Positions 19,654 to 54,573 of a stretch of DNA of 64,000 nucleotides are shown here, one piece after another; position 1 is the stretch's first letter, and the number at the start of each line of letters is the position of its first letter. Origin of the DNA: an uncultured Clostridia bacterium. GTDB taxonomy: Bacteria; Bacillota; Clostridia; RUG12999. The notes under the pieces were generated by a model, which saw only the letters and a list, made by a program, of their open reading frames with translations, was not told the DNA's origin and made no database searches. The stretch spans positions 1 to 64,000 of the forward strand of contig CAMNSU010000007.1 of the NCBI GenBank assembly GCA_946555455.1. Direction: 5' to 3'. A program made the position numbers and the translations under genes.

Positions 19654-19703
19654 CTTTACATATCCTTTCACATGTTTTAGGGGCATGCGTAGGATTGTTA
19701 GAT

Positions 19704-20006: not shown

Positions 20007-20012
20007 AATTTT

Positions 20013-20723: not shown

Positions 20724-20729
20724 CACCCC

Positions 20730-21794: not shown

Positions 21795-21796
21795 TA

Positions 21797-22532: not shown

Positions 22533-22543
22533 GATTCCACCTC

Positions 22544-24736: not shown

Positions 24737-25182
24737 TACATCATCACCCCTTTTTGCTGCGCTGAAATCTGCATACTACCGTACACCGTGGTACAACCAA
24801 AATGTACAGTCACGCTGCTGCCATCTTGCACAAAGTTGAAATTGTCGACTCCCGTAATATATGGATTTACCATAAGTGCCTCCGTGATATACCGCCGCAA
24901 CTCCGACAATACAATATCGCTGTGCAGCGTCTTGCCAATCAGCTGCTCTGCTTCATTACCGTATGTGCGTGAATAGGCGGTGTATCGGTAACGTTGCGTA
25001 TAAAGCGCTTTGTATATCCAGATTTCAAGTGCCTCATTGCCTTCAACAAGATAGGTTTTCCCGTCTTTTTTTAACAAACAATTATTTTCAAAGTCATAGG
25101 CGTATTCCTTAAATAGTGGTAGTTCTTTTTTTTCTTCGGTTGCAGCGACTGCAGCCGAATCTATAAACGGAAGGATACTCAT
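24736..25182 (-). CDS. DUF2634 (XkdS-like) baseplate protein
   Basis: This 148-residue protein shows the XkdS/DUF2634 pattern: KEYAYDFENNCLLKKDGKTYLVEGNEALEIWIYKALYTQRYRYTAYSRTYGNE and RRYITEALMVNPYITGVDNFNF. It is the equivalent of the gp25-like lysozyme/wedge protein of other contractile tails. It overlaps both neighbours by a few bases in a tightly coupled baseplate operon. Confidence 0.88.
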   Translation of the reverse strand: MSILPFIDSAAVAATEEKKELPLFKEYAYDFENNCLLKKDGKTYLVEGNEALEIWIYKALYTQRYRYTAYSRTYGNEAEQLIGKTLHSDIVLSELRRYITEALMVNPYITGVDNFNFVQDGSSVTVHFGCTTVYGSMQISAQQKGVMM

Positions 25183-25523
25183 GCTCGCACCACCTTGCTT
25201 AGAATATAGAAGGAAACACCGGACTGTTTAACCACCACGGTATCACCTATGTGCAGCACTGCCATATCATGGTATTGCTTTAAAAAATCAAATAGTTCCG
25301 GCGGCGCGGGAGCGGACTGAAATAACTGCGCAATCCGCTCCGATTCCAGTATATAGCATGGATTGACGTATAGATTCTTCGATATGACAGTATCATGTGT
25401 TTTGATGGACAGAGGATTGATGGATTGTATGGTTGCAGTCATAATTCCGCTGTCTTGCGCCGCCGAACCTCCCGAACTGTCCCGAATTGCTTCTATAATA
25501 TTACTTGCCCAACGCTCTGCCAT
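25179..25523 (-). CDS. DUF2577 (XkdR-like) baseplate protein
   Basis: The protein of 114 residues starts MAERWASNIIEAIRDSSGG and contains a beta-barrel region (ATIQSINPLSIKTHDTVISKNLYVNPCYIL; HIGDTVVVKQSGVSFYILSKVVRA), as in XkdR/DUF2577 spike-associated proteins. GGAGGTGG precedes the ATG at 25523; a longer frame to 25598 overlaps the gene before it and is very basic, and is unlikely to be used. Confidence 0.85.
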   Translation of the reverse strand: MAERWASNIIEAIRDSSGGSAAQDSGIMTATIQSINPLSIKTHDTVISKNLYVNPCYILESERIAQLFQSAPAPPELFDFLKQYHDMAVLHIGDTVVVKQSGVSFYILSKVVRA

Positions 25524-25536
25524 GGTTCCACCTCCG

Positions 25537-26544
25537 TCATCTCTGTTTTTCATCATCGGCTTTGGTTTCTTCTTTTTTCTTTTCGAGTTCTTTTTCATCC
25601 ATCAAATTTTCAAACGCCAACGTCAATTGCATTTCTTCCTTTGCGCCTGAAAAAGTGTGGGTGTCGCTCTCAATATAAAACTGACCGTATAGTCCGGTCA
25701 CGGAATCTTGTATCAAGATAGAGTAGCCGGACACAGCACAGGGGTCGCTGGTTGCCGTGACACTGGCGGTTTGGTCTATACCATTGAGCAGGTTGTGCGC
25801 TTCGGCGTATACATCTTTGTTATCCTCTTGTTTCAATACTTTTTGAACAGTCCCATTAATCTGGGTATCGAAATCCTGCACAAAATCTAAAATATTACCG
25901 TCTTTGTCGGTAATCACGATTTTGTTCACCATCTGCTGCAACGTCTGTTTGTAGCTTTCTTCTATAGTATTGTAGCTTCCATCTATCACTACGCCGCACA
26001 GGGTGCCTTTTTCAACTATAGATACATGATTGATGTCTGTGATGACTGGAATATACTTTTTGCCGTTTTGCCGCGCCGCCTGAGTATATGCCATCATGAT
26101 ACCCTCGTATGCTTTTTTACCCATGCAGGGCATATAGACGGTGATACCTGTTTGGGCGATGCTGCCCTCCAGAACGCCGACATCCCGAAGGATGTTACGT
26201 GTGACATCCTCCACCAGCCCCTCATACACATTGTTGACATCTGATTGATTAACGTAGTACATCATATCGTAGGCAAGGTAGGATACCACACGGGATGATC
26301 CTGTCCGGTCGTCGTCAAAAACCAGCCCGAAAAAGATTGTGCTGCCCTCATCAGTCTGCAGTAGCACCCTGTCCCCAATACGGGGCAGAACCTGCGGCAT
26401 GATAGCGTCATAAGGATTATGTACCACCGTAAACTGTAGCTTACGCGCCACCTGCTTGGTATCCCCAGACCATGTGATTTTTTCTACATATTCTGAAATA
26501 TTTTTAAGGAAGATGAGGTTTGCATCACCAACTAATAGTTTCAT
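25537..26544 (-). CDS. XkdQ-like tail hub protein
   Basis: The 335-residue protein is of the XkdQ/YqbQ family, the hub (gp27-like/gpD-like) of PBSX-type tails. Visible features are KITWSGDTKQVARKLQFTVV, IGDRVLLQTDEGSTIFFGLVFDDDRTGSSRVVSYLAYDMMYYVNQSD and the C-terminal FYIESDTHTFSGAKEEMQLTLAFE. A charged Lys/Glu tail ends it. It starts within the stop codon of the LysM gene. Confidence 0.88.
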   Translation of the reverse strand: MKLLVGDANLIFLKNISEYVEKITWSGDTKQVARKLQFTVVHNPYDAIMPQVLPRIGDRVLLQTDEGSTIFFGLVFDDDRTGSSRVVSYLAYDMMYYVNQSDVNNVYEGLVEDVTRNILRDVGVLEGSIAQTGITVYMPCMGKKAYEGIMMAYTQAARQNGKKYIPVITDINHVSIVEKGTLCGVVIDGSYNTIEESYKQTLQQMVNKIVITDKDGNILDFVQDFDTQINGTVQKVLKQEDNKDVYAEAHNLLNGIDQTASVTATSDPCAVSGYSILIQDSVTGLYGQFYIESDTHTFSGAKEEMQLTLAFENLMDEKELEKKKEETKADDEKQR

Positions 26545-27188
26545 GGAATTATCAACTCCGTTCCAGCATATATCAGCGATGGATTGCCGCCGATGAGAGC
26601 CTTGTTGGCATCGTAGATAATAGTATATAAGTTACCGTCCCCATAGTAGCGTTTGGCGATATTCCAGAGATTGTCACCACTTTTGACCGTGTACTTTGTC
26701 GGTTGTGGCGCCGTATCCGGGCGCTCTTGCAGACCGTTGTCCTGTTGTTGTACTACTGTCACTTGCTGCGCTGGGACATTTAGAAAACGGTATTCGGTCA
26801 TCTCAAGTTTGTAGTAAATGTCCTGATCTCCTTCCACATACCGTGGCGTGAACTTATCAATTGCCATGGCAAGATTGATTTCTGTACCAGATACGATCAC
26901 TCGAACAGGCTTTTTATTGTTTTCCATCGTTTGCAATGTCTTGATATATTCAGCCGGTGTTCGGTCTGCAAAACGATAGAATGGGGATAGTATAGATGGG
27001 AAAAAACTATCTATTGCTGTTGAGATTAGTCCGCGGTGACCTAGTAACAAAACCTCTCCAATATTCAATAGTGTTATTTTTTCGTGGTTTACCGTGTCAG
27101 AAAACTCTATATCTTTTGGATTGATTGGTATGATCAGAGACACTGCGTGGTTATCCTGGCTGATTTCAATAAATCTTGTTTTACCCAT
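26541..27188 (-). CDS. LysM-domain tail protein (XkdP-like)
   Basis: The 215-residue protein has a tail-tube-initiator-type N-terminal part (SQDNHAVSLIIPINPKDIEFSD) and a C-terminal LysM module (YTVKSGDNLWNIAKRYYGDGNLYTIIYDANKAL, about 165-212) that binds peptidoglycan or clamps onto the hub, as in XkdP. A strong AGGAGG site stands before 27188. Confidence 0.9.
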   Translation of the reverse strand: MGKTRFIEISQDNHAVSLIIPINPKDIEFSDTVNHEKITLLNIGEVLLLGHRGLISTAIDSFFPSILSPFYRFADRTPAEYIKTLQTMENNKKPVRVIVSGTEINLAMAIDKFTPRYVEGDQDIYYKLEMTEYRFLNVPAQQVTVVQQQDNGLQERPDTAPQPTKYTVKSGDNLWNIAKRYYGDGNLYTIIYDANKALIGGNPSLIYAGTELIIP

Positions 27189-27201
27189 GTATTTCTTCCT
27201 C

Positions 27202-29637
27202 CTATGCCATGTTTCCCGCGACCTCGACAATTTTTCGCGCTACTGCCTCGCCAATCCGGTCAATGTCCGCGTCTTCGCGGACAATAATCTGGTCCGCCAG
27301 TTTGGCAATCGTGACATTGATTGCACCTTTCATTCGCTCTACCATTCCTGTTGCACCTGCAGCGTTTGGCTGCGGGGAAGGAGATGGAGGAAACGGGAAA
27401 GGAAATGGCAGCGGTGGTGGCGGTGTCGAACCCTGTGGCTCTGGTTTGTCTGACTGCTCTGGCTTGTCGACATTTACTACATTTTTTATTCGCTGTACAA
27501 CAGGTTGCGCTTTGGTTCTTTGCATCAATCCCTGCTTGAGTACCGACAAAAATCCTACGATACCAGATTGTACTTCTGAGGTTGCTGATTTTATTGGTAA
27601 TGCTGCAGGCTGTGCAAGTTTTGTAACGGGCTGTGCTACAGTTGCCTGTTGCTGAACGTATTTGGTGCTATCACGGTTAGACAATATTTGTGTGCCGCGT
27701 GGTAGATTGATAAGCTCCGGTCCTTGTTCACCTACCCATGTTAATCCGCCACGCCACGACTGTGTTCCATTTGCATTGCTGCCAATATTTATGTCAGCAC
27801 CGCCGCCCGATATCTTGTTGGCAATCCAATTCCATCCTTTTGCGACAGTATTTAAAGCGCTGCCAATGCCTTCTATGATTGGTTTGATTGCATTCCATAC
27901 TGTTGTTATAACTGCCTTAATACCCGGAAATACTTTTTGTACAACAGCAAACAATATTTTGAACGTACTGATTGCAATATCCATAACCGGACCTATTACA
28001 GTCCATGCGGTGGAAAGTATATCCCTTACCATTGGCACCGCCCAATTAATAACACTTGTTATGAAACCCATGCGTTCGCCGACAAAACTCACAACTGACC
28101 CGACTTTTTCACCAATTGACTGAAATATTGTTTGAAAAACCGGAGCAAGTGTGGTGACCGCATAACTAATACCGGATACCAAACCAGATATGATGGGCGC
28201 AGCAGCAGATAACACACCACTAATAGATGACACAACAGTAGACAAAACTGGAATAATAGATGGTAACATATCTTGAACTGAAGATACTACAGTCTGAAGT
28301 ACTGGACCCACTGCACCCGCAAGTTGCTGCAGGCTTGACGATACCGTTGTTTTAAATGAACTGAATTGTACCATGGTTTCCTGCAGTTTTTCAGTGTCTA
28401 TGTTGCCAAACATTGTACTGAACAAGGAACCTATATTTTTTGTACCAGTGCCGATTTTTGTCAGCATATTTTCGAGTGCCGGACCTGCCCATCCTATCAC
28501 TCTGTCCAGCACAGGCATGATATAGTCCGCCGCCCTCGAAATGGATGTCATAATCGTTGTTCCCAATTTTTGTAAAACCGGAAGGTTTTTCATGACGACC
28601 GTCGACAACTTTGCTTTGAGTGATAGTGTTACTTTGCCGACTTCTTCGCGCATGTCGCCAAAGGCGTTTTTTACTTGCTGTATTTTACCTTGGTCTGTTT
28701 CAGCAAGTGCTTTATTAACACCTCCAACATTTTGCTGGAGGATTTCAGCAAGCACCGCAGCCCTTTGTTCTGCAGTGCCAGTTTTTAATGCTTTTTCCTG
28801 GACTTCATCAAACGTGATTCCGACCCTAGAAAGTGCGCTGGTCTGCCCTTGCATAACCTTACCAATCATGTTGCCAATGCCTACCGCGTCCTCCTGGGTA
28901 GCATTAAGCCCTTTTTGCTGTGCCAGCAGGTCCGTCATGCCACCAGATAAGGTCTGTATCTCCTTATCCGATAGCTGGAAGGTTGCAAGCTGTTGCATCC
29001 CAGCCAATGTAACTTCATCGCCAATGACTCCAACCTGTTGTAGGCTGCTGGCGACACCCATTAGATTTTTTTTGGCGTCTGCCGCCGCTCCGGCGCCGCG
29101 CGCTTGTATGCTTTTGACATTATTCAGCACGGCACCTAGTTTTGTCTCTGCCTCAATTTGGTCTTTTGCAGCATCTTCACTACCAGAATATAAAGCAGTA
29201 AGAGCCGCACCTCCGGCAGCAGCTGCGGCTCCTAATCCGATAGCAGCAGCTTTTCCAACTTTGGCAATACCCGCTCCAACTTTGGATAACGCTTCCGCGC
29301 CTTTGACCGCCACATGAATAACAGGCTTACCAACATAAGAGCCTATCTGTTTCAGCTTGTTACCCAGTGGCTTTATTTTTGCCGTTGCACTATCCTTCAG
29401 CTTAACTGCTGCCGTTACTCCTTTTTTAATCGTATCAAATTTAGATTTTAGACTACTGGCGGCTTTTGTTGCCGCAGTGGTATCCACATTGACTTTGTGG
29501 GTCTTATCATATACTTGCTTCATTTGGGACTGCGTCTTTTTGACATCGTCCCTAAAACGCTTCTGCTCTTTGCAGATGGTTTGCAGTACGGGCGTCACGC
29601 TGTCTTTGATACCGAGTTCTCCTTTAACTGCTCCCAC
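27202..29637 (-). CDS. Tail tape-measure protein
   Basis: The 811-residue protein sets tail length. It has an N-terminal coiled coil (KEQKRFRDDVKKTQSQMKQVYDK), a hydrophobic Ala/Gly-rich stretch (about 130-160), a TP901-type core (DQIEAETKLGAVLNNV..., LQQVGVIGDEVTLAGMQQLATFQLSDKEIQTLSGGM) and alternating hydrophobic helices with aromatic residues. The C-terminus has a Pro-rich linker and a helix that may bind the tail tip. The start is GTG at 29637, one base into the stop codon of the frameshifted chaperone and after GGAGGTGG, so translation of the two is linked. Confidence 0.92.
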   Translation of the reverse strand: MGAVKGELGIKDSVTPVLQTICKEQKRFRDDVKKTQSQMKQVYDKTHKVNVDTTAATKAASSLKSKFDTIKKGVTAAVKLKDSATAKIKPLGNKLKQIGSYVGKPVIHVAVKGAEALSKVGAGIAKVGKAAAIGLGAAAAAGGAALTALYSGSEDAAKDQIEAETKLGAVLNNVKSIQARGAGAAADAKKNLMGVASSLQQVGVIGDEVTLAGMQQLATFQLSDKEIQTLSGGMTDLLAQQKGLNATQEDAVGIGNMIGKVMQGQTSALSRVGITFDEVQEKALKTGTAEQRAAVLAEILQQNVGGVNKALAETDQGKIQQVKNAFGDMREEVGKVTLSLKAKLSTVVMKNLPVLQKLGTTIMTSISRAADYIMPVLDRVIGWAGPALENMLTKIGTGTKNIGSLFSTMFGNIDTEKLQETMVQFSSFKTTVSSSLQQLAGAVGPVLQTVVSSVQDMLPSIIPVLSTVVSSISGVLSAAAPIISGLVSGISYAVTTLAPVFQTIFQSIGEKVGSVVSFVGERMGFITSVINWAVPMVRDILSTAWTVIGPVMDIAISTFKILFAVVQKVFPGIKAVITTVWNAIKPIIEGIGSALNTVAKGWNWIANKISGGGADINIGSNANGTQSWRGGLTWVGEQGPELINLPRGTQILSNRDSTKYVQQQATVAQPVTKLAQPAALPIKSATSEVQSGIVGFLSVLKQGLMQRTKAQPVVQRIKNVVNVDKPEQSDKPEPQGSTPPPPLPFPFPFPPSPSPQPNAAGATGMVERMKGAINVTIAKLADQIIVREDADIDRIGEAVARKIVEVAGNMA

Positions 29638-30217
29638 TACATACCACCTCCAAAGATTTCCTGCATTTGCTGTGCCTTGTCTTCCTGTGCCACCTCCATG
29701 GAGGCGGCATAAAAAATCTTACTGTACGGTCCCAGAGTGAGGATATCCTCAGCGCCATGACTGCTATTTTGCGTATAGTAGTGTAGCAGATTGGCTTCCC
29801 AGTCCCGCCTAATTAGTTTTTTATCTGTTCTATTACTGTTACAGGCTTTGTGCCAATCACGCCGGATAGCTTCATGATCTCAGTTGCAATCTGCGTTTGT
29901 TCACTAATGTCAAAAATATCTACCACTTCTATTGGTTCGGTAATTTCGCCTGCTTTTTTAAGTTCTGCAGCAACTGCTTTTAAATCAGGTTTTTTACATG
30001 CCAAATAGATAGCGTACCTATCACAACGATTTGGATCGTTTTCATCCTCTATGCTTGTGCATTCAACAATTTCTGTATTCAATAAACTGCGAATAACAAT
30101 TTCCTCGTCCAAACTGGGCACATACAGCGTGACTGTTTTACATTTTCGTTTATCTTGAAGACGCTGCAGTGCTTTTTTTGTAAACTGTTCAAGGGTTGTC
30201 TTGGTATTTTTATCCAT
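29637..30217 (-). CDS. Tail assembly chaperone with -1 ribosomal frameshift product
   Basis: The first frame (30217-29813) codes 134 residues of an XkdN-like chaperone (KNTKTTLEQFTKKALQRLQ; TLYVPSLDEEIVIRSLL). Its last codons are ATA-AAA-AAC-TAA, which contain the slippery heptamer A-AAA-AAC (29822-29816). A -1 shift there opens 59 more codons (LIRRDWEANLLHYYTQNSSH... to IFGGGM) with no stop until 29637. The extension ends on the tape-measure start, exactly as in lambda G/GT. The fused product would have about 193 residues. RBS AAAGGA lies before 30217. Confidence 0.88.
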
Positions 30218-30231
30218 GTTTGCTATTCCTT

Positions 30232-30675
30232 TCATTTCATTTTAATAGCGTCCAGATTAACCATATCAGATGGTGTAAACCCAAACGGATACTCTTCTTC
30301 AATAATGGCACCTTTTTCAATTTGCGCCAGCATGAGTTCGGTAAACCAGACGTTATCAATAGAATATCGTTCCACCTGTCCGCCAACTGCGTCAGGGTCC
30401 GCCAATTTGGTGATAATCTGACCGCGCACATCGTTGCCTTTAGCGTAGGAGGCAACAATGTCCGCCGCTCGGGTATATACTTTCTTGATTGCCAGCGTAC
30501 CTTCGCCAACCAATCCAGTCATCTTGCTATCCACGTCAATGCCGAGCTGTACATCTTCACGGTTGACGGTCACTTTGACCTCAATTTTTGACATTTCCAG
30601 GATTTTGTCGCCGTTAAGCCAAACCTCGCCCCATGTACCGGATAGGGTTTGGTTGCCCCTGATTTTCTCTGCCAT
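30232..30675 (-). CDS. Tail tube protein (XkdM-like)
   Basis: The 147-residue protein begins MAEKIRGNQTLSGTWGEVWLNGDKILEMSKIEVKVTVNREDVQLG, typical of XkdM/DUF2001 tail tube subunits, which stack into the inner tube of the contractile tail. It follows the sheath gene, as in all myophage clusters. Confidence 0.9.
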   Translation of the reverse strand: MAEKIRGNQTLSGTWGEVWLNGDKILEMSKIEVKVTVNREDVQLGIDVDSKMTGLVGEGTLAIKKVYTRAADIVASYAKGNDVRGQIITKLADPDAVGGQVERYSIDNVWFTELMLAQIEKGAIIEEEYPFGFTPSDMVNLDAIKMK

Positions 30676-30688
30676 TTTACTGCCTCCT

Positions 30689-31753
30689 TTACATGTCGAC
30701 TACCATGTCCATATCTTCCATGGCGTCAACAAATTTAATGTTGCTGCGAACGAATACGCGGCTGCCCGTGTTGGCTTTGGCGATATCAATGTCCGCCATG
30801 TTTGTCGTGTCGGTTCCGCTGCTCTCTAAATAGGTGCGCTGCGCCTCCACATCTACCACCGCCGTATTGTCATAGCTGCGGTCCAGTACGTTGCCCTCTA
30901 GCTGCTTGATATAGCTGCCAACTGCCGCCACGAACAGTTGCTTGTTGTCGTAGTCGTTGATATAGTTACCGACATAGCGGTCCTCGAACGTTTGCCTGAT
31001 GTCGTCCCGGTATAGGTCCATACCTTCCACAATTTTGATTTTCGCCAGGTCTGCCCTTTTGTCGCCTGTAAAAGTTGTAAGGCTGTTGACCGCGCGTCCC
31101 AGCTTGTAGCTGTCTCCGTCATATACGACAATGAGTTCGCCCGCATCAATTCGCGCGTCTGGGTCGTCTGGTGTATCTGCCGCCGAAATATCCGTCAGCT
31201 TATAGTAAGTCGCGCTGCGGTCCAGCGTCAGTCCCGCCAATACTCCCGCAATGCGCGGACAATACTGCGCTGCTGTGAGTGTCTGCTGGGAAAAAGATGA
31301 GACAATGCCACCTGTTGTAAAATTGATGATTCCTTCGTGGTCCGCTTTTATGTTTGGCAGGATCGCTTTAAATGTCTTTTTGTACTGGTCGCGTTGTTCC
31401 TTAATCCAAGCAGTAACCACCGTTACGCCCTCTTCATCAATAGAAGGTATCGTCAAATAATTAAACTTGATATCCTTTAGCACTTTCAGCGCTGCCGTAT
31501 AGTCCGGCGTTTTCGCCGCTACGCGAACCACGTGGACCTTGCTGGGCGCTCCCGCAAAAATCATCTGCAAGTATGTATAATTCTGTTCGGTGTATTTGGT
31601 AAAGTCTACATCAGCCACGCTGGTGTAGGTCGCAAACGCCGCGCCGCCCTCTGTGGCATCTGCCATAATACAAGCAACAACACCACGCCCGCTGCGGACG
31701 ATTGCCGTCGCACCTTTCGCAATAAATTCTATATTAATGTTTGGTAATCCCAT
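30689..31753 (-). CDS. Tail sheath protein (XkdK-like)
   Basis: The protein of 354 residues is the contractile sheath subunit. It has the N-terminal GLPNINIEFIAKGATAIVRSGRGVVACI domain, a central YDGDSYKLGRAVNSLTTF beta region and the C-terminal IKIVEGMDLYRDDIRQTFEDRYVGNYINDYDNKQLFVAAVGSYIKQLE handshake segment, and ends in SRVFVRSNIKFVDAMEDMDMVV. GAAAGGAG stands before 31753. Confidence 0.92.
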   Translation of the reverse strand: MGLPNINIEFIAKGATAIVRSGRGVVACIMADATEGGAAFATYTSVADVDFTKYTEQNYTYLQMIFAGAPSKVHVVRVAAKTPDYTAALKVLKDIKFNYLTIPSIDEEGVTVVTAWIKEQRDQYKKTFKAILPNIKADHEGIINFTTGGIVSSFSQQTLTAAQYCPRIAGVLAGLTLDRSATYYKLTDISAADTPDDPDARIDAGELIVVYDGDSYKLGRAVNSLTTFTGDKRADLAKIKIVEGMDLYRDDIRQTFEDRYVGNYINDYDNKQLFVAAVGSYIKQLEGNVLDRSYDNTAVVDVEAQRTYLESSGTDTTNMADIDIAKANTGSRVFVRSNIKFVDAMEDMDMVVDM

Positions 31754-31766
31754 GTTTTCGCTCCTT

Positions 31767-32198
31767 TCATTTTTCATCTATTTCTAATGATTCCATGAGT
31801 GGTGGCTGTGCAGGTACTGATTGGCTATCACGAAATCGCAACGTAAACACATAATGTAACATTCCATCACTAATGCGTATATCCACATTTTCCACTGTGA
31901 TAGCACGATCATCAAACCGGACTATCGGACGGATAGCACTATCCAGTTTGCCCGCCATCTCCCAATATGCCGCGTTCTTTTCGCCGTCCAGATGGGCGGT
32001 AATGTCCAATAGTACGGCATGGTCTGTGTGATACGGTCCGGCAGTTGTACAGGAGGCAGGCTGTAGTCCGATAAATACCCAATCTTTAATTGGGGGATTA
32101 TCTTTTGTTTTGCTGATTTGTTCCGAAAACACATAAATGTCCGGATATATGCTCTTTACCGTACGCACGACACTGTTTTTAATATCCTCGTATATCAC
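31767..32198 (-). CDS. Tail terminator-type protein
   Basis: The 143-residue protein (MIYEDIKNSVVRTVKSIYPDIYVFSEQISKTKDNPPIKDWVFIGLQPAS...) matches the small family of tail terminators found between the HK97-gp10-like gene and the sheath gene in PBSX-like phages. It would cap the tail tube and join it to the head. The assignment rests on position and overall pattern. Confidence 0.78.
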   Translation of the reverse strand: MIYEDIKNSVVRTVKSIYPDIYVFSEQISKTKDNPPIKDWVFIGLQPASCTTAGPYHTDHAVLLDITAHLDGEKNAAYWEMAGKLDSAIRPIVRFDDRAITVENVDIRISDGMLHYVFTLRFRDSQSVPAQPPLMESLEIDEK

Positions 32199-32210
32199 GG
32201 CATCTGCCTC

Positions 32211-32612
32211 CTAAAAAATATCATGTCTGGACAAAAAATCACTCATCCACGCGTCCAGATATCCCGGTAGGTGTTCGGCAGCTTCCGCTAAAGATAATTC
32301 CAGCATATGCTGACCCGGAACAAAAGAGCCGCCGCGTGTCCTGTGACCGTATTCTACCGGCTCCGCATAATCTACTTCATTGATAATCTCGACTACCCAT
32401 TCACTGCCGCGCTGATGGACGTTTCCGACCCGCCACGCGTCCTGTAGCCGTCCCGTTCTCCGTTTCGTTCGCTCCTTTGCGCGGTTACAGATTTCGTGCG
32501 CCATGTCAAGCAATAGCTGTTTAAATTCCTCCGGAAAATCCTGCTGAATCATTTTCAGCAGCTTTTTTTCCATGTCATCCAACCCGTCAATGCGGTAATA
32601 GCTGCCACTCAT
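32211..32612 (-). CDS. HK97 gp10-like neck/tail completion protein (XkdI-like)
   Basis: The 133-residue protein contains the gp10 family features: DMEKKLLKMIQQDFPEEFKQLLLDMAHEICNRAKERTKRRTGRLQDAWRVG and EVDYAEPVEYGHRTRGGSFVPGQHML. Such proteins close the neck between connector and tail. It overlaps the preceding gene by four bases. Confidence 0.88.
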   Translation of the reverse strand: MSGSYYRIDGLDDMEKKLLKMIQQDFPEEFKQLLLDMAHEICNRAKERTKRRTGRLQDAWRVGNVHQRGSEWVVEIINEVDYAEPVEYGHRTRGGSFVPGQHMLELSLAEAAEHLPGYLDAWMSDFLSRHDIF

Positions 32613-32971
32613 ACGGTATCGCTATCCAATATCAGTGGCACATTGTTGTGAGAGGGCTTGCGGTCCGGTAACCCTGCCTGTGCCACAGTGACTTTGCCTA
32701 ACTGTGTAATCTCCAGCGTATCACCCTGTTGTATATCAACTTCCGGTCGCGTGAATAATCTGTAGTCGGTAGGTGTATGCGCCACTGTCTCTGTTCGATT
32801 GAGTTTCCCACCAGAGGGACGGGCAAATGCACACGGAATATCCTTGTATACTAGCCGCCCGTCCAACCCATCCAGAAACGCACTTTCGCCCGTTTCTAAT
32901 GTATTTATGACTGGTCTGTAAACATTGCAACAGTCGTCATATGTTGCTGCCAAAATATCTGCTTCAGTCAT
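32609..32971 (-). CDS. Head closure protein (XkdH-like)
   Basis: The 120-residue protein (CCNVYRPVINTLETGESAFLDGLDGRLVYKDIPCAFARPSGGK...) has the short beta-barrel pattern of XkdH-type head closure proteins, with CxxxR near the start as in related head-tail stoppers. Located between the adaptor and gp10-like genes, as expected. Confidence 0.8.
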   Translation of the reverse strand: MTEADILAATYDDCCNVYRPVINTLETGESAFLDGLDGRLVYKDIPCAFARPSGGKLNRTETVAHTPTDYRLFTRPEVDIQQGDTLEITQLGKVTVAQAGLPDRKPSHNNVPLILDSDTV

Positions 32972-32975
32972 GATA

Positions 32976-33347
32976 TCACGCCCTTTCTGCCGGGCGCGGA
33001 ATCTTCATCCGCCGAAATCGTTGCAACATACTGAGATAGTCTCGCAAAAATTCTGTACTTTTAAGATATTCCGTTGTACCGTTCTTATAGCTGATACTGG
33101 TATCCCCACGTGATACGCTGGCAACTTTATCATCCACAGGTACTACCTGTCCGGCACGCAACGTATCTTCGGCAATCTGTGCCGCGATGCTCTCCAACTG
33201 CCGCGGAAGATCGTCACGGCAGCAATAAATGAGTATTCCATTCACCGCCCGCCGCGCGTGTAGTTCCGCCTCCGCCATTTGTTCATCCTTTAGCTTTAGT
33301 GCCTTTCTTATTTCCTCCACGATTCTGCTTATCTGCTCCGGTGTCAT
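32976..33347 (-). CDS. Head-tail adaptor protein (gp6/YqbG-like)
   Basis: The helical protein of 123 residues (MTPEQISRIVEEIRKALKLKDEQMAEAELHARRAVNGILIYCCRDDLPRQLESIAAQIAED) looks like gp6-type connector adaptors that dock beneath the portal. The ATG at 33347 is preceded by GGTGAGG; a GTG at 33356 is an alternative. It overlaps the small gene after the capsid by about 65 bases in another frame. Confidence 0.8.
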   Translation of the reverse strand: MTPEQISRIVEEIRKALKLKDEQMAEAELHARRAVNGILIYCCRDDLPRQLESIAAQIAEDTLRAGQVVPVDDKVASVSRGDTSISYKNGTTEYLKSTEFLRDYLSMLQRFRRMKIPRPAERA

Positions 33348-33483
33348 ATTCCTCACCGCCGCTTTCTTCTGGTTCTACTTTTTCTTCTTTTACACGCCGG
33401 AAGCCTATGGCTTCCAGACGTTCCGCCTCCGCCTCTGAATTTTTGATTTTTACTACATTATCGCGTTCTAATGTAATCATCAT
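33283..33483 (-). CDS. Small charged protein following the capsid gene
   Basis: The 66-residue frame (MMITLERDNVVKIKNSEAEAERLEAIGFRRVKEEKVEPEESGGEEYDTG...) starts six bases after the capsid stop with AAGGTG upstream. Residues 1-32 look like the short domain found after capsid genes in many Firmicute phages; the rest is low complexity and overlaps the adaptor gene. It is plausible but short. Confidence 0.6.
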   Translation of the reverse strand: MMITLERDNVVKIKNSEAEAERLEAIGFRRVKEEKVEPEESGGEEYDTGADKQNRGGNKKGTKAKG

Positions 33484-33488
33484 GCACC

Positions 33489-34427
33489 TTACCCTTCTGT
33501 CGGCAACGACTGCTGCACGTTGACAAATATGTTATTGACCTTGTTTTTCGGCACCCAGAGGTCGTGGAATTTGCGGTAATCCATTGCCCACGCCCGTTTT
33601 TTCTGGTAAGTGTTCGGGTCAAAAATGCGCATATTGTCTGTTTTAGACACAGCGATAGCAGTGTCAGCCGGACAAATAATCCAGTTTATATCTTGTGCGT
33701 CTGTGGCGGCAGCAAACCCACCCTTTTCTTGTCCAGATGTCTTCCCATCATTAAATATATATTTGGTCTTGAAACGTCCGCCGCCAACACGTATAATGGG
33801 ATGTTGTCCATTCAGTGATTTAACCTTCAGCGTCACATCGCCTTTAGTAAAATTACTTGTATCCAGTATTTTTTTTGTTTCATCTGCCAGATCTAACATC
33901 ATGGCAGCAGTCATGGACATTGTAATGATAAGCGGTTCATCATCACCGACAACATCTTGTACCTGAGCAATATCATAGAGCAATTTGCTGTAGATATCCT
34001 TTGCTGTAGGGATGTATCCCCCTGATGCATGTTTTGCTGTGATACCTTTCGCAGCAAGTGTACTATAACGATACGCATCAATCTCCGGTACCACTTGTTT
34101 CCGTTGGAATTCGCCCATCATGGTCGCCGCTGTGAGGACAAAGTTTGTTTCGTCAACGTCATTTTCGTCAATCGTAAATCGCCGTGCACGATCCATGGTC
34201 ATGGTCTGCGTTTCCCATTTTAAATCTACGGTCCCGTCAACAAACCCATTATCACGATCATAGTCTGCCAGACCATCCATGACGATGGACGGAATTTTCA
34301 CTTCATTTCCGCCGTTATACTTGACCATATCGCTATTAAGTTCCATCCAGCCAGATGTTGCTTTTTGCACCGCTGCGCGGTCAAGTTCATTCTGAAATAC
34401 TTTTGCATATTCAATTGTATTTGCCAT
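33489..34427 (-). CDS. Major capsid protein
   Basis: The 312-residue protein is of the XkdG/SPP1-type major capsid group with an HK97 fold: MANTIEYAKVFQNELDRAAVQKATSGWMELNSDMVKYNGGNEVKIPSIVMDGLADYDR, a FTIDENDVDETNFVLTAATMMGEFQRKQVVPEIDAYRYS spine helix and C-terminal IICPADTAIAVSKTDNMRIFDPNTYQKKRAWAMDYRKFHDLWV. It directly follows the scaffold gene. Confidence 0.92.
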   Translation of the reverse strand: MANTIEYAKVFQNELDRAAVQKATSGWMELNSDMVKYNGGNEVKIPSIVMDGLADYDRDNGFVDGTVDLKWETQTMTMDRARRFTIDENDVDETNFVLTAATMMGEFQRKQVVPEIDAYRYSTLAAKGITAKHASGGYIPTAKDIYSKLLYDIAQVQDVVGDDEPLIITMSMTAAMMLDLADETKKILDTSNFTKGDVTLKVKSLNGQHPIIRVGGGRFKTKYIFNDGKTSGQEKGGFAAATDAQDINWIICPADTAIAVSKTDNMRIFDPNTYQKKRAWAMDYRKFHDLWVPKNKVNNIFVNVQQSLPTEG

Positions 34428-34429
34428 AT

Positions 34430-35056
34430 TTATTTACCTCCTCTGATACGCTGTGCGATTTGGTCCTGCAATGCGTTTTCGGCTTTCGCCGCGCCGCCTA
34501 GCCCAGCAGGTGTCTTGCCACGCAATTTGTAGTTGACAGCTTCCTCCAGGCATTTTTTAAACACGTCCGTAACTTTTTCAAGATGAGTGGTCATGGTAGA
34601 CTCGTCTTGGTAATTCAGCACATCTGCCAGCCCTTCAGGTAACCCTTCTTTTGCCAGTTTTTTTCTGACATCCTCACTAAGTTTTTTTTGATTGAGTTCT
34701 GCCCGTAGTTTCTCTAGTTCTTTGTCTTTTGCTGCCTGTTCTTCTTTTTCCAGTTCCTCCGGTGGGAGTTTCTTTTTTCGTTCTTCCTCTTTGGATTCAT
34801 CCTCCCATTGCTGACGCTTTTCTTCCAGGAGTTTTTGGATGTCATCTTCGGTGTAGGTTTTGCCTTTCTTTTCTTCTTTCGCAGGCTCATCCTTCGCCTG
34901 TTCATCTTTTGTGGAATCTGTGTTTGATTTAGCAGTATCGCCCCCGCTGAAAATCCCCGTCAGCAGTTTTTTGATTCCGCTGATGTCCTGGTTGTCGTCT
35001 GTTTGTTGCATTTCTTCGGCTTTGGTTTTTTCCGTTGCCATTTTAGTTTCTTCCAT
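34430..35056 (-). CDS. Scaffolding protein (DUF4355-type)
   Basis: The 208-residue protein is highly charged with a long coiled coil (about 70-130, rich in Lys/Glu) and the DUF4355 pattern KEGLPEGLADVLNYQDESTMTTHLEKVTDVFKKCLEEAV. It would guide capsid assembly and then leave. GGAGGT precedes 35056, and it lies just before the capsid gene. Confidence 0.88.
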   Translation of the reverse strand: MEETKMATEKTKAEEMQQTDDNQDISGIKKLLTGIFSGGDTAKSNTDSTKDEQAKDEPAKEEKKGKTYTEDDIQKLLEEKRQQWEDESKEEERKKKLPPEELEKEEQAAKDKELEKLRAELNQKKLSEDVRKKLAKEGLPEGLADVLNYQDESTMTTHLEKVTDVFKKCLEEAVNYKLRGKTPAGLGGAAKAENALQDQIAQRIRGGK

Positions 35057-35107
35057 GGTTTTACCTCCATTCGCTTATCATTTTATTTAACCCCACTAGT
35101 CAGGGAG

Positions 35108-36118
35108 TTACACAATGCCTTGACGGCGTGTCCACTCAATATATTTAGGATTGTCTTTGAGTGGTGTCACATCCGGATTGTCTCGAAACATCTTGATATT
35201 AACTTCTGCCTCTATTGTGCAGAGGCAGTTCGGGTGCAGCGGTGGCAGATTAACACCCGGTTCCGCTGCATCCAGCGCAATAACTTCACCATTCCACCGC
35301 GCACAATCGCACGATTGTCCCTCACTGCCACCGATAAACCGATACTGTTGGATATTGTGTGCCCGGTAGGTCTCTAGTTCCCCGCGGCTGGCAAAGTATT
35401 TGCATTCGGTACGCACCAGCCGTTCAGCGGCGTAGCGCCCTTTATCCATAACGCTATTGATTTGCCGTGCCATGTCCTGTACACTACTGCCCTTGATGAA
35501 CCCATATGTAATCTCCCGCTTTGCGGTTGCCGCCAAACGATCCACGTTGTCCCATACAGTACTTGAAAAGTGTTTGTTACTCCACGGATAGCTGATGATA
35601 TCCCGCACGGTCTTGACGTTAATTTGGGCGACCTGCCACTGTAGCCCCATACCACGCTGCAGTTCATACGCGCCGCGGTAATAACTGACGCGCAAAATAT
35701 CTCCCAACAGGTCCTCCAGTTTGGTGTTGCTATCGTGGGCGAGGTTTATCATCTGCTGGTAAATACCAGATAGCAGCGCTTCCTTTCGGCTAATACGGCT
35801 TTTTGCTGACAACGTATTGAGTTCCAGTAAGGTCTTTGAACCCTTTGCATCCTTTGGTATCTCTTTGAGATATTCCTCCATGGATTTTCGCCATGTACCG
35901 TACTCTTTTCCTGTTAGCAGCCGTTCAGCTTCTGCATTGGTCAGTTCATTGTCTCTGGCATAGCGGGCAAATATAGCGCCGATTTCTTTTTCCACCTCGT
36001 TCGCTGCTTCATCATACAAAAATAGCAGTTCTTTGGTTGCATTGTCGGTGTTGCGTTGGGTAAAGAGGACTTTCTCTTTGGTTTGCTCTATCCAGCGGTT
36101 CCGGTTCCTGCTACTCAT
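35108..36118 (-). CDS. Minor head protein (Mu F / SPP1 gp7-like)
   Basis: The 336-residue protein carries the Phage_Mu_F domain in its C-terminal half: DMARQINSVMDKGRYAAERLVRTECKYFASRGELETYRAHNIQQYRFIGG, a CDCARWNGEV segment and the diagnostic LPPLHPNCLCT. It is injected or helps head assembly beside the portal. Its start overlaps the portal stop codon. Confidence 0.92.
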   Translation of the reverse strand: MSSRNRNRWIEQTKEKVLFTQRNTDNATKELLFLYDEAANEVEKEIGAIFARYARDNELTNAEAERLLTGKEYGTWRKSMEEYLKEIPKDAKGSKTLLELNTLSAKSRISRKEALLSGIYQQMINLAHDSNTKLEDLLGDILRVSYYRGAYELQRGMGLQWQVAQINVKTVRDIISYPWSNKHFSSTVWDNVDRLAATAKREITYGFIKGSSVQDMARQINSVMDKGRYAAERLVRTECKYFASRGELETYRAHNIQQYRFIGGSEGQSCDCARWNGEVIALDAAEPGVNLPPLHPNCLCTIEAEVNIKMFRDNPDVTPLKDNPKYIEWTRRQGIV

Positions 36119-37464
36119 ACACCATCATCACCCGCGTCTATTCTTTTTCCTAATTCCTCATATCCGCTGCCGAATTCCGCCATATCACGTTTCCGTTCTT
36201 CAGCCTTTTTGGCTATTTCCTCCTGTACATTTTCTACCGCCGGAATCATTTTAAGAACCGTTTCCTCTGATAGATATGGAGACAACATTCCGGCAACTTG
36301 TGCGATTTCCAGCAAATTTTGTGGGACATTGCGGCGGAACTGCATGGTGATGTCCCTATAATCATAGTTGCCACCCTTAATGTTGAGGATATTGGTAATG
36401 AGTTCTATCCGACGTTGCAAGCCTCGTTTAAATTTGCGCTCTTTTGTTGCCGCGACCTGTTCCATGCCCCAAAGTTTGTAGCCCATGGCAACGCCGGAAG
36501 CATTAGACGCAAAGGATTCATCGCCCATATATGGCACACTAGCAAACGTGTGCATATCCGAGCGCAAGCGGTTTTTGTGGTTTTCCATGGCTGTATCATT
36601 GATTTGCTTGATTAGCCAATCAATGTCGCCGCCGTCCTCCAGGATTACTGCTCCAGCTTCCTTCATTGCCTTAATATCTTCTGCGGTTACGGCACCCATT
36701 TTAAGGATTTTTAGCAAGGCATCATCATTGTATTGGAATAAGTTTGCTGTATTAGATACTGCCTTGTTATAAGCATCAATTTGGGTGATAATACCCTCAA
36801 AATCTCCAATTCGCTCGGCATTATTTGGATATTCTACAAATGGTACATCTTTCCAGTAATGTTCCTCAATTTCTTCCAGATTGAGATTTCCACCATTAAT
36901 TGATTTAAAATATATAACATTTTCCGCATCCCAAAATTCCACCTTACGAATACGATTTTTATTTTTATCCACCGAATAAATTGTGCGCATGACTGCCATT
37001 GGTTCGGTTTCTCCAGTGGCATATATCATGATAAGATTTTCTGGTGCAACTGTTGCAAACCGTATATTCGCCCGTTCATCAATATAAAGCATTTCAAATG
37101 ATGTTCCCTTGATACTGCCTTGTTTAACAAGTTCAGCATTGTGGTCTTGTTCATCGTTATATTCGTAGACAGACTGCAGCTCCTGCAGATAATTCTCATT
37201 GCCATCGCGCGACCCATATATGACGGGCTTGCCGATAAAATATCCGGTCATGGTATCTGTCACGTATTTTGCCATGTTGTGCACGACCCGATTATTGGGG
37301 CTGGTGCGGTCCTGTTTGGTGTAGTGGAGGATATCATGCTTGCCACGGTAGTAATCTTCCAGGTGTTGATACTTGGTTCCTATGCTGTTTTCGTCGACTA
37401 TCTCCTTGATGTCTTTTTCATTCAGACTATCAATCGACGATTTTTCCATATAGAGCACTGGCAA
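36115..37464 (-). CDS. Portal protein (SPP1 gp6-like)
   Basis: The 449-residue protein forms the DNA-entry ring. It matches SPP1-type portals: YQHLEDYYRGKHDILHYTKQD, a TDTMTGYFIGKPV motif, DAENVIYFKS and QIDAYNKAVSNTANLFQYNDDALLKI, with a C-terminal acidic tail. Located after the terminase. Confidence 0.92.
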   Translation of the reverse strand: MPVLYMEKSSIDSLNEKDIKEIVDENSIGTKYQHLEDYYRGKHDILHYTKQDRTSPNNRVVHNMAKYVTDTMTGYFIGKPVIYGSRDGNENYLQELQSVYEYNDEQDHNAELVKQGSIKGTSFEMLYIDERANIRFATVAPENLIMIYATGETEPMAVMRTIYSVDKNKNRIRKVEFWDAENVIYFKSINGGNLNLEEIEEHYWKDVPFVEYPNNAERIGDFEGIITQIDAYNKAVSNTANLFQYNDDALLKILKMGAVTAEDIKAMKEAGAVILEDGGDIDWLIKQINDTAMENHKNRLRSDMHTFASVPYMGDESFASNASGVAMGYKLWGMEQVAATKERKFKRGLQRRIELITNILNIKGGNYDYRDITMQFRRNVPQNLLEIAQVAGMLSPYLSEETVLKMIPAVENVQEEIAKKAEERKRDMAEFGSGYEELGKRIDAGDDGV

Positions 37465-37478
37465 TCTTTACACCTCCT

Positions 37479-39227
37479 TTAAAGCCCCAATAATGAACGG
37501 TTAAACACGGTAAACCGCCTGGTTTTTTTTGCGAGCCGACAGCAGCCCTCCAGGGCGTCTGGTCCGTCGTCATGTGCCGCCATTGGGTATTGTGTCAGCT
37601 GCTCTATCAGCCGTTTATGACGTCGTGAAAATTTGATGTATTTGTTTTTGATATCTGGTTGCAGCGTCTGGATACGCATATATTTATCACTGGTCTGCTG
37701 GACTTCTTCAATGGGGAGATATATTCCTGCTGCCGCTGCGTCTTTGGCGAGTTGTTCTTTCAAAAACCATTGAAACTGGTTGGTTTCTGCGCCAAACTTT
37801 TGGTATCCGGCGCCAAAGGTCTTTTTCAGCCACTTTGCCTTTTCGAGTATATCGGCGATAATCCTGTCTGGGTGCCGCCGCTCGATGTCCGCGTCCACTA
37901 TGTACATGTACCCGGTAGACGTCTCTTTCGCAATAGTGATAATTGCTGAAAAGTCCGACGCCTTGGATTTGCCCAGCGAGGGGTCAACAAACCCAAAAAA
38001 CTGATATCCTTTGGAAAAGTCTATATCCACCTCATTGTAATAGTCAAACCATTCCTCAATAAACAAGCAATCGTCTGGGTTGATAGGTTCATTCTGTTCT
38101 TCACTGTTAAACGCAGCTTCGCCTTCCGACACCCGCATGACCATAAGGTCGTAATAAGAGAGCTTTTCCTCCCATAGAACTTTTGTCCCCTCCAGCATTT
38201 CCACCCGGTGGGCTTTAAAAAATGCTGCGGCATCTTCTTGTCGCTGGCTATTGTCTAGGTCGGTATAGAGGGCTTCCCACTGGTCCCATAGCGGGGACGG
38301 CGAAAACGCCATGACCGCCTTGTATTTGATGGACTGGTACGCTGGGTTTGCCAGGGTATGTGCGAGCAGGCTGTCATAATGCAGCAGCGTGCCAATATAG
38401 ATGATATCCGTGTAATCGTCGCCTGCCTTGGAAACCGCTTTCAAAAACCAGTTTTCTAACTTCCTACGTTGCTCTGGTGTGCGGACGTTTTCATCATTTT
38501 CCACATCGTCCAATACCAGCAAGTCCGGACGCCAGTTCCGGTGTTTACGTCCACGGATTTTTTTGCCGCTACCGATTGCTTCTACCTTGATTCCTGTTGA
38601 CGTCAATAGCACGTTGCTACGCCATACCTTGCCTTGCTGTGTCCCAAAGTCCTCCATGATGGCAGTGTTTTCTTCCAATTCTTCACGGATATTGTCCAAA
38701 AAACTTTCGGCTTGTTCAGAACTATCAGAAATAAGGATGAGGTAGTGCTTATATTGGTACAGTATCGCGTGCAAGGCTCCCTTAAAGGTCAGACAGGTGG
38801 ATTTCGCGTGTCCACGCGGGGCGGCAGTCGCCCGGCGGGTGCCCATCTGTTTGTTGACTTTGTCCGCCTGCTGCTGCGTATCCGGCACAATACTTTTGAG
38901 GACGCCGTCGCGCCAGATTTTATCTAAATCCCTGTGGAAATCCGGCGCGGGTCTGGAAAAGTAGTGGGCAAAATATGCCCGCCCGAAAAACTCCATGTCC
39001 AGTGCGCCCAGCTTACGACGGAGACCATCCGGTCCGGTCAGTGCCGCGCCGGATTCATATTCCTGCCGCAACGCCACGCGGCGGGGTGTATCATCCAGGT
39101 ACAAAAACCGCTTGAACAGGCTGACTAAATCATTCAAGTCCGCTTTAACTGCGGTTTCCAGCGATTTTTCGGTATCTTGTATGACCCCGAATAATGCCTC
39201 CACACTGCGCCGTTTTCGTCGTTTCAT
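37479..39227 (-). CDS. Terminase large subunit (Mu gp28-like)
   Basis: The 582-residue packaging motor has an N-terminal ATPase (Walker A PRGHAKST, about 138-145; Walker B DLLVLDDVEND, about 235-245) and a C-terminal RNase-H-like nuclease (FVDPSLGKSKASDFSAI and a late DDGPDALE). The start at 39227 has GGGAGG 13 bases upstream. As in Mu it would cut DNA by headful packaging. It lies 125 bases after the NusG-like gene. Confidence 0.92.
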   Translation of the reverse strand: MKRRKRRSVEALFGVIQDTEKSLETAVKADLNDLVSLFKRFLYLDDTPRRVALRQEYESGAALTGPDGLRRKLGALDMEFFGRAYFAHYFSRPAPDFHRDLDKIWRDGVLKSIVPDTQQQADKVNKQMGTRRATAAPRGHAKSTCLTFKGALHAILYQYKHYLILISDSSEQAESFLDNIREELEENTAIMEDFGTQQGKVWRSNVLLTSTGIKVEAIGSGKKIRGRKHRNWRPDLLVLDDVENDENVRTPEQRRKLENWFLKAVSKAGDDYTDIIYIGTLLHYDSLLAHTLANPAYQSIKYKAVMAFSPSPLWDQWEALYTDLDNSQRQEDAAAFFKAHRVEMLEGTKVLWEEKLSYYDLMVMRVSEGEAAFNSEEQNEPINPDDCLFIEEWFDYYNEVDIDFSKGYQFFGFVDPSLGKSKASDFSAIITIAKETSTGYMYIVDADIERRHPDRIIADILEKAKWLKKTFGAGYQKFGAETNQFQWFLKEQLAKDAAAAGIYLPIEEVQQTSDKYMRIQTLQPDIKNKYIKFSRRHKRLIEQLTQYPMAAHDDGPDALEGCCRLAKKTRRFTVFNRSLLGL

Positions 39228-39277
39228 GAGTGCATATCCTCCCATTCATCAAAATAACCCATTTATTTGCGTTTTAC

Positions 39278-39297
39278 GGCTATGTAGGTTCACAGCC
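39278..39297 (-). promoter_or_regulatory. RNA hairpin between the NusG-like gene and TerL
   Basis: On the minus strand a 7-bp stem GGCTGTG/CATAGCC (one G-U pair) encloses the 6-base loop AACCTA, about 50 bases before the terminase start. There is no T-run, so it is not a terminator. LoaP-type NusG paralogues are known to act through a small RNA hairpin in the leader of their target operon, which makes this a candidate site. Short hairpins can arise by chance. Confidence 0.4.
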
Positions 39298-39352
39298 TAG
39301 GAATTTAACCAGAAATTCATCTACGAAAAATTTAAACGGCTTTTGAACGCGT

Positions 39353-39871
39353 TTAAACGGTATCTGTTATATCAATATCACTTTCTTTTGATTTTTGTTT
39401 TGAAACTGCTGTTTTATCCTCATTTTTGACATAACACAAGTCAAAAGTTCGCTCTTTCCCGTTAAGGGTAATACTGACTGTGACATTTTGCACTTTCCGG
39501 TTTACTTTAGTAATGCGACTCTTAAACGCCTTCAGAATTCCGGACACAATTTTGATTTCTCGTCCGTTTTCTTGGATAATGGACGGTTCCAACACATTTT
39601 CAAGCAACCGCACCCATGATTCTTCTGTGTATGTTAACGGTTTATGCGTAAACTCAACAATGTGTGGAATAGATTTAATCAGATAATATGTACGGGCATT
39701 GTATGGTATATCTGCAAAAACTAATCCCGGGAAGAGAGTTTCAATCTCCGTTTTGGTTTCTTTTTTTCGCCACTCCTGTGGTACAATTGCCTTTACATGT
39801 TCTTTCTGCATTGCTGCTTTAACGATACATTCTTTCCCTTTTTCTACTCCAATCGCATATAACACCGTCAA
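39353..39871 (-). CDS. NusG-paralogue (LoaP-like) transcription elongation factor
   Basis: The 172-residue protein has the two-domain NusG layout. The NGN domain (1-110) reads MTVLYAIGVEKGKECIVKAA, ETLFPGLVFADIP, a YYLIKSIPHIVEFTHK segment and LTYTEESWVRLLE. A C-terminal KOW domain (about 115-150) reads REIKIVSGILKAFKSRITKVNRKVQNVTVSITLNGKERTFDL. Specialised paralogues such as LoaP and RfaH bind RNA polymerase and let it pass terminators in long operons. Here it is coded inside the phage, between small and large terminase, ahead of about 20 kb of structural genes, so it is a likely antiterminator of the late operon. A tail of 20 polar residues follows KOW. Confidence 0.82.
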   Translation of the reverse strand: MTVLYAIGVEKGKECIVKAAMQKEHVKAIVPQEWRKKETKTEIETLFPGLVFADIPYNARTYYLIKSIPHIVEFTHKPLTYTEESWVRLLENVLEPSIIQENGREIKIVSGILKAFKSRITKVNRKVQNVTVSITLNGKERTFDLCYVKNEDKTAVSKQKSKESDIDITDTV

Positions 39872-39880
39872 TGCCCCTTT

Positions 39881-40429
39881 CTATTCTGTTTCTTTTTTAC
39901 TTTCCAAATACTGTGCCACCTGTCGGTACAGATCCGGTCGTTCCTTCGCCATGGCTTCAAATACCATGTTTTTCACTGCTTCCAGACCAGTTTCTGTTGT
40001 ATTTTGGTCTTGCACTTCAATATGTTTTTTATATGCCGCCGCGCGAATCAGCCCGTTGGTCTCTTTTAGTAGCTTGGCAATATTGACATCCGACCAGTCG
40101 GCTTCTGTTGTATTTGCAAGCGCGTTGAAGATGTGCTGACTACTAAGCCGGATGATGGCTTCCGTCGTATCCAGGTCTGGGTATTTTTCCATTTCATCCA
40201 TCATACGCCGAAAATTTTCTTGCGCTATATTGAGCATTTCTAGATTGGCGTTGTAATTTTTCGCGTACCTGCAGATGGACGCTGTGGATATCCCCACACC
40301 TTGTTCTTGTAGGTAATCAACAATTTCCGCATAGGTACATCCGCCCAGCAACATTTGTTCCACGGTTTCCTTTAATTCCGGTGTCAGGCTGTCAATTTTG
40401 CTATGCTTCCTGTTTTGCCGTTTTTCCAT
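39881..40429 (-). CDS. Terminase small subunit (DUF3486, Mu gp27-like)
   Basis: The 182-residue protein has the DUF3486 pattern: an N-terminal helix-turn-helix (LTPELKETVEQMLLGGCTYAEIVDYLQEQGVGISTASICRYAKNY) that would bind phage DNA, then a helical body (ATEAIIRLSSQHIFNAL..., KLLKETNGLIRAAAYKKHIE). It matches Mu gp27, the partner of the large terminase. Confidence 0.88.
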   Translation of the reverse strand: MEKRQNRKHSKIDSLTPELKETVEQMLLGGCTYAEIVDYLQEQGVGISTASICRYAKNYNANLEMLNIAQENFRRMMDEMEKYPDLDTTEAIIRLSSQHIFNALANTTEADWSDVNIAKLLKETNGLIRAAAYKKHIEVQDQNTTETGLEAVKNMVFEAMAKERPDLYRQVAQYLESKKETE

Positions 40430-41164: not shown

Positions 41165-41497
41165 TTATTCATTACTGAGCAAGTCGAAAGCAGTGATTTG
41201 ACCATCTAACGGCTTGGCTTTAATTTCCGCTGTTTTATCTGCAACAATATTTCTAATCCATGTGTCCGTCAATCCGTATTTGAGTGCCAACGCTTTTGTA
41301 TTATATCCGTTGTACTCCGCCTTGATACGGGCGTCCCTTTCCACTTTCGATAACCACTCATATTTCGGCACATATATGGCGGTACCGCCATACGTTTCGA
41401 CTATTTTTCGATAGTTCTCCAGCCCAATCAGTTCTGCAAGCTGCCGCTGTCCTTCATCCATATCGTCTAAAGTGACAAGTTCTGCATTATTCACCAC
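41165..41497 (-). CDS. Mor-family middle-operon activator
   Basis: The 110-residue protein has the Mor/C family signature: QRQLAELIGLENYRKIVETYGGTAIYVPK (dimer strand region) followed by a helix-turn-helix (YNGYNTKALALKYGLTDTWIRNIVADKTAEI). In Mu, Mor switches on the middle promoter just downstream of itself. Here a GTG start at 41497 overlaps the GemA-like gene. Confidence 0.9.
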   Translation of the reverse strand: MVNNAELVTLDDMDEGQRQLAELIGLENYRKIVETYGGTAIYVPKYEWLSKVERDARIKAEYNGYNTKALALKYGLTDTWIRNIVADKTAEIKAKPLDGQITAFDLLSNE

Positions 41498-46302: not shown

Positions 46303-46381
46303 GGACACACCCTCTTTCTTGACCTGCCTCATCAGCTGCAGTAGGTCATTTCTGCAGGACGGAGCCACGCTCCGTTTCGGC

Positions 46382-54522: not shown

Positions 54523-54573
54523 TCTTGACCAACACCTCCCTTTCCTATTCATTCTGCGCAAAAGCGCAGTCAT

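Follow-up and report, generated by a model that had tools for sequence, protein, structure and literature searches.

In Mu-like phages of Firmicutes, a gene for a LoaP-type NusG paralog often separates the genes for the small and large terminase subunits, and the RNA element RAGATH-28 that follows it in these phages most likely acts, judging from sequence comparison, as an element of LoaP recruitment and attenuation and thus as the switch to late genes. The phage in the 64,000-nucleotide stretch of Clostridia DNA analyzed here (the window) has kept the gene in the same place and has lost both the RNA and an arginine predicted to contact it. We hold it to be reasonably probable that these phages have a LoaP-type late-gene switch and that the window protein still promotes late elongation with a different recruitment.

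The cassette of the window is on one strand (−). A single gene for a Mor-family activator (41165..41497; Pfam and PHROG) is upstream of o119, o110, gp27, and the loaP-type gene. The gene for the gp27-type small terminase subunit (39881..40429; Pfam Phage_Mu_Gp27, 1.5e-16; PHROG) precedes the loaP-type gene, which as an open reading frame with a TTG start spans 39353..39871 and encodes 172 amino acids with NGN and KOW domains. The GTG at 39865 appears the more probable start because the spacing of the ribosome-binding site fits and relatives begin there. A gap of 125 bases (39228..39352) separates this gene from terL, which encodes the large terminase (37479..39227; PHROG 38, 1e-109), provided that terL starts at 39227, where the alignments of relatives begin. 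terL is the first gene of a putative late operon, followed by late genes (18892..37464) for portal, minor head, major head, sheath, tube, tape measure, and baseplate proteins, fibre-region genes, and a terminal DNA methyltransferase gene, down to about 18.9 kb.

Other features of the window are also on the − strand. Two matches to type-P1 twister ribozymes (43052-43115 and 42000-42060; 55.5 and 53.3 bits, E 5e-10 and 2e-9, below the gathering score of 67.2) flank early-middle genes of the phage. A match to a Type II hammerhead (46318-46382; 38.3 bits, barely over the gathering score) adjoins the transposase gene, and this class is also present in relatives L018, L019, and L171. Adjoining the prophage is a possible defense gene (49454-50680), encoding a nuclease-like protein with PADLOC matches to NsnA (1e-71) and PD-T4-2_A (9e-42), and the product of a second gene (52969-54573) weakly matches Cas10/Cas3-type proteins (E 1e-8).

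Profile searches relate the product of 39353-39871 to NusG and more closely to LoaP. Pfam returns NusG at 5.7e-8 and a weak KOW match (0.5), PHROG 6386 ("transcription antiterminator") matches at 1.1e-14, and in NCBIfam, LoaP (9.4e-19) ranks above nusG (7e-9), with RfaH not among the matches. At 68 bits, the protein does not reach the curated LoaP cut-off of 125 bits; phage relatives L046, L014, and L026 are above it (165, 158, and 136 bits) and L010 and L008 are below (115 and 96 bits). An AlphaFold2 model built on an alignment of phage relatives has an NGN plus KOW fold (pLDDT 92; cores mostly >90). When the model is compared with the PDB using Foldseek, three chains of 8f5g ("NusG-RNA complex") are top-ranked (E 4e-11, TM 0.64-0.75), two of which align over nearly the full length (~170 columns, TM 0.72-0.75), and the remaining matches are mostly single-domain or have a large rmsd. 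By this comparison, the model has the NusG fold and the LoaP-like arrangement of two domains. The same entry is the best PDB match by sequence and we infer, from its title and date, that it is the LoaP complex cited in PMC12691694. The housekeeping NusG of the host is encoded on a different contig of its genome. In the tree, a 100/100 branch splits LoaPs and the window protein from housekeeping NusG, and the window protein is inside the phage-LoaP group (92/88), on the longest branch among phage LoaPs (2.07). The earlier note on this DNA had described an NGN-KOW paralog of NusG between the two terminase genes and ahead of about 20 kb of late genes. That description stands, and two of the checks it named, phylogeny and structure prediction, cluster the protein with LoaP apart from NusG and yield a NusG fold.

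The window gene is, as its sequence indicates, a descendant of a LoaP-type antiterminator. We do not file it as a canonical LoaP because, despite this ancestry, its product scores below the cut-off and it is without the RNA-contact arginine and the UNCG hairpin that are among the defining features. Ancestry, modeled fold, and position give good support to its putative role as a LoaP-like late antiterminator, and relatives in which loaP and a LoaP-type UNCG hairpin are directly before terL support it strongly.

Relatives were collected by their large terminase rather than by the NusG-like gene. The set comprises 39 viral contigs and 27 genome contigs; the named hosts of the latter include Anaerotruncus colihominis DSM 17241, whose locus (L211) has the cassette with loaP, as well as Fervidicella metallireducens, a Paenibacillus, and Lachnospiraceae. 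A LoaP-type gene is located between gp27 and terL in 21 viral and 8 genome loci (~24 distinct loci after de-duplication), and eight distinct loci have gp27 and terL without loaP (L016, L022, L025, L027, L028, L029, L213, and L224). The order of the cassette is constant in relatives, mor-o119-o110-gp27-loaP-terL, with RAGATH-28 between loaP and terL. The pair of loaP and RNA is also seen where no match to the window terL follows. Annotated nusG genes are present in other phages as well (Microcystis phage MaAM05 and Acinetobacter phage records).

In relatives with loaP, the gap before terL has a UNCG hairpin with a two-base bulge, NNNNNGG-UU-GA-UUCG-UC-CCNNNNN. Its stem is paired in 85.5% of cells and covaries (0.485 vs. 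0.142 when shuffled and ≤0.172 when slid), and the variable position of the tetraloop is U, A, or G, matching the expectation for UNCG. A second conserved module, CATAA ... GGATGGCGAAGCATACCC, follows the hairpin, often with an intrinsic terminator; the helices of this module are less certain. The element corresponds to Rfam RAGATH-28 (RF03052), with 13 loci above the gathering threshold of 45.3 bits (L008, L009, L010, L011, L012, L015, L026, L033, L038, L079, L099, L138, and L171); loci with loaP outside this list are matched only by a model built here, R1. All 24 distinct terL loci with loaP are matched by R1, weakly in six (L013, L018, L030, L046, L208, and L210), and none of those without loaP are. 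Many of the 24 were in the training set of R1; those outside it (L018, L019, L020, L023, L030, L046, L205, L208, and L210) agree, as does Rfam's own model. If only loci with gp27 are considered, the difference (24 of 24 vs. 0 of 8) is expected by chance about once in ten million, relatedness ignored.

The association of RAGATH-28 with loaP extends beyond Mu-like phages. Scans of 391 and 399 genomes, class- and phylum-wide, yielded seven RAGATH-28 matches in six genomes, all directly downstream of a loaP. The settings that are not Mu-like include a capsule operon (L245) and two pilus-like operons, one with SAF, T2SSE, and T2SSF proteins (L243) and one with a SAF gene alone in the stretch read (L244), and two fecal phage records likewise carry the pair. 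A scan with the pattern GGTTGATTCGTCCC matched at least 120 viral contigs, 39 with loaP and 81 without loaP in the stretch. In the 39, the pattern is always on the loaP strand, −39 to +345 nt from the loaP stop codon; with only 14 bases in the pattern, the other 81 probably match by chance. It is because of the UNCG hairpin, the absence of the element where loaP is absent, and the position of all scan matches directly downstream of a loaP that we read RAGATH-28 as a LoaP element.

Two observations concern the element outside phages. In L243 (G672:C46, ~4990-5250, − strand), two tandem copies of RAGATH-28, 165 nt apart, are downstream of loaP and before the pilus-like operon. The chromosomal LoaP loci L232, which adjoins capsule genes, and L233 have weak RAGATH-28-like matches (E 0.14 and 0.27) ~110 nt downstream of loaP, which suggests that divergent forms of the RNA may occur outside phages.

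Leaders of relatives have two further features. A terminator is located after or around the conserved module in individual leaders (e.g., L099, L181, L194, L206, L026, L033, and L138). Across 39 leaders, terminator-like folds average −21.7 kcal/mol compared with −14.5 kcal/mol when shuffled, moderately above shuffles (p 0.003, by a crude method). The leaders also have TTTAAA repeats at spacings of 10-11, 21, and 31 nt, which follow the helical turn of DNA (115 occurrences, compared with 11 in shuffled leaders). Such phased repeats may mark a site ahead of terL where the DNA is curved or bound by protein.

The window departs from this pattern in both RNA and protein. RAGATH-28 is present in the loaP-terL gap of relatives and was not found in that of the window, in 38 kb of surrounding sequence, or anywhere in the host genome, neither at the lenient threshold of Rfam nor by our own model with filters off. 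The best candidate for a hidden copy in the window, a match of 12.1 bits inside a late gene, is taken as noise. The window leader before terL likewise has no UNCG hairpin of the LoaP type, and fold prediction found no strong intrinsic terminator in the gap. The protein alignment has a four-residue deletion at residues 34-40 (codons at 39752..39772, − strand) that removes the putative equivalents of the RNA-contact positions E40/R41 of LoaP. The aligned arginine is present in 52 of 54 phage LoaPs, all five chromosomal LoaPs, and 1 of 29 NusG-type rows, and absent from the window protein. From its position in an "ER" motif, it would correspond to R41 of Bacillus velezensis LoaP, a residue needed for RNA binding (PMC12691694). 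The helically phased repeats are retained (39331..39357, − strand; TTTAAA, TTCAAA, and TTTAAA at ~10-21 nt). They begin at the loaP stop codon in the window and after RAGATH-28, 100-240 nt past the loaP stop codon, in relatives, as if the RNA segment had been excised from the window gap.

The gap does have the 7-bp hairpin to which the earlier note drew attention (39278..39297, − strand), GGCUGUG-AACCUA-CAUAGCC, which is not a LoaP UNCG hairpin. As RNA, it forms seven pairs including one G-U (−10.5 kcal/mol), and its stability is only modestly above chance (4 of 200 shuffles of a 41-nt piece fold as well; z of −0.7 over 107 nt of the gap). The hairpin and the length of the gap were thus described correctly, and the survey of Firmicute Mu-like phages proposed alongside found loaP at the same site. 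The hairpin itself is not conserved: it was not found at the loaP-terL site of sampled relatives, a sample without near relatives of the window phage, and RAGATH-28 is there instead. Elsewhere, it is matched only with three mismatches. As the sole notable local structure, it is at most a candidate for a replacement signal.

The absence of a C homolog does not bear on the role of LoaP. Textbook Mu controls its late genes with promoter activators, Mor and C, and the earlier note, seeing no C, suggested that a LoaP-like antiterminator replaces it. Profile searches of the window indeed found no second Mor/C paralog beside the one Mor-family gene. Across all sequences searched, 82 have one Mor-family gene and two have an extra fragment. 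The lack of C is a trait of the whole group and is no argument for LoaP as a stand-in because relatives with and without loaP both have one Mor-type gene. Of that suggestion, the LoaP-like nature of the protein is borne out by ancestry, fold, position, and relatives; the replacement of C was an inference from an absence that does not track loaP, and we reject it.

The comparison suggests how the late genes of these phages may be controlled. Both in vivo and in vitro, read-through by B. velezensis LoaP depends on the UNCG hairpin of the dfn leader; LoaP needs no other factor and antagonizes NusA at intrinsic terminators (PMC12691694). In several phage leaders, hairpin and terminator are arranged in a matching way, and this arrangement is conserved. 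Transcription from the Mor-controlled middle region would read gp27 and loaP and reach the RAGATH-28 leader before terL, where the UNCG hairpin would be the site of LoaP recruitment and the downstream structure has, in many leaders, an intrinsic terminator at its end. RNA polymerase would halt at this leader early in the cycle. Once LoaP accumulates, it would bind the hairpin, join the elongation complex, counter NusA-stimulated termination as the B. velezensis protein does, and take polymerase across the head and tail genes, a stretch of about 20 kb. The protein of the window phage may still promote elongation of the late operon, but its recruitment must differ because both RAGATH-28 and the RNA-contact arginine are lost. 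It might be recruited by the local hairpin (39278-39297) or by the phased TTTAAA repeats, or it might load unaided, as NusG does. This second step we infer rather than compare because of the score of 68 bits against 125, the branch of 2.07, and the loss of both RNA and arginine. Late antitermination in the window phage must either use another signal or be decaying.

That the window copy is a decaying LoaP, its RNA target deleted, the protein without a job, and the late genes read without it, would account for the missing RAGATH-28, the deleted arginine, and the longest branch among phage LoaPs. We nevertheless regard decay as unlikely: the reading frame is intact over 172 codons, the NGN and KOW cores are kept and mostly modeled at pLDDT >90, and the gene still occupies its exact position in a late cassette that is otherwise intact. 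Retention of a NusG core while specific RNA recognition was lost is also compatible with a general phage substitute for NusG that loads with no sequence signal, like housekeeping NusG, and serves as a processivity or anti-Rho factor, and the nusG genes annotated in other phages provide some precedent. Yet the tree groups the protein with LoaP and not NusG, the host already has a NusG, and a position immediately ahead of the late operon suggests a target nearby, making this explanation rather improbable.

A further alternative concerns the relatives, in which RAGATH-28 might be an independent element, for example for mRNA processing or packaging, that merely adjoins loaP and is not its target. 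RAGATH RNAs were, as their name records, collected near ribozyme-associated genes, and these phages also have hammerhead and twister ribozymes, both of which count toward independence. Against it, the RNA is beside loaP in the capsule and pilus-like contexts too (L245; L243 and L244) and never at terL loci without loaP, and it includes the class of UNCG hairpin bound by LoaP (PMC12691694); we consider independence very improbable. A LoaP-type late switch, with altered recruitment in the window phage, remains our preferred reading.

The proposed switch resembles and differs from known systems. Like LoaP of the difficidin and macrolactin operons of B. velezensis, it has a NusG paralog encoded beside its presumed target, a long operon, with a UNCG hairpin and terminator in the leader of the phage relatives and a modeled fold like 8f5g. 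Here, however, the target would be a late operon, loaP precedes its own leader within a single transcript, and the window copy is without hairpin and RNA-contact arginine. As in Mu, a Mor-family gene is in the middle region and the late operon starts with packaging genes, but there is no second Mor/C paralog, and the switch would act at elongation instead of, or besides, promoter activation. Q and N of lambda similarly let polymerase pass terminators into a long operon; they are of unrelated protein families, and here the signal would be an RNA hairpin that follows the gene for the factor itself. RfaH, another specialized NusG paralog, loads at the ops DNA element and has a free CTD that is alpha-helical. 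The window protein is nearer LoaP in sequence and fold searches, and its CTD is modeled as a beta barrel. RF03052 is listed in Rfam without a function; the element of relatives passes its gathering threshold in many loci, and the window genome is without any.

Antitermination by LoaP is already known; what is apparently new is that transposable phages would use it to switch to late genes, with RAGATH-28 as its element. The LoaP literature searched describes secondary-metabolite operons. The search found no use of LoaP at a phage late switch, no paper on RAGATH-28, and no link between the two; the original RAGATH report and two key LoaP reports were outside its coverage, and an earlier remark is possible. 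Tentatively, we go further and suggest that a LoaP/RAGATH-28 switch times the late genes of Firmicute transposable phages, which would give an orphan Rfam RNA a function, and that the window phage has been rewired to use LoaP without a UNCG hairpin via a new signal. The findings would place processive antitermination by a NusG paralog at the Mu-like late switch, where textbook Mu has promoter activators, and provide a testable role for RAGATH-28. Having lost the RNA along with the residue predicted to contact it, the window phage may serve as a natural experiment on how NusG paralogs gain and lose specificity of loading.
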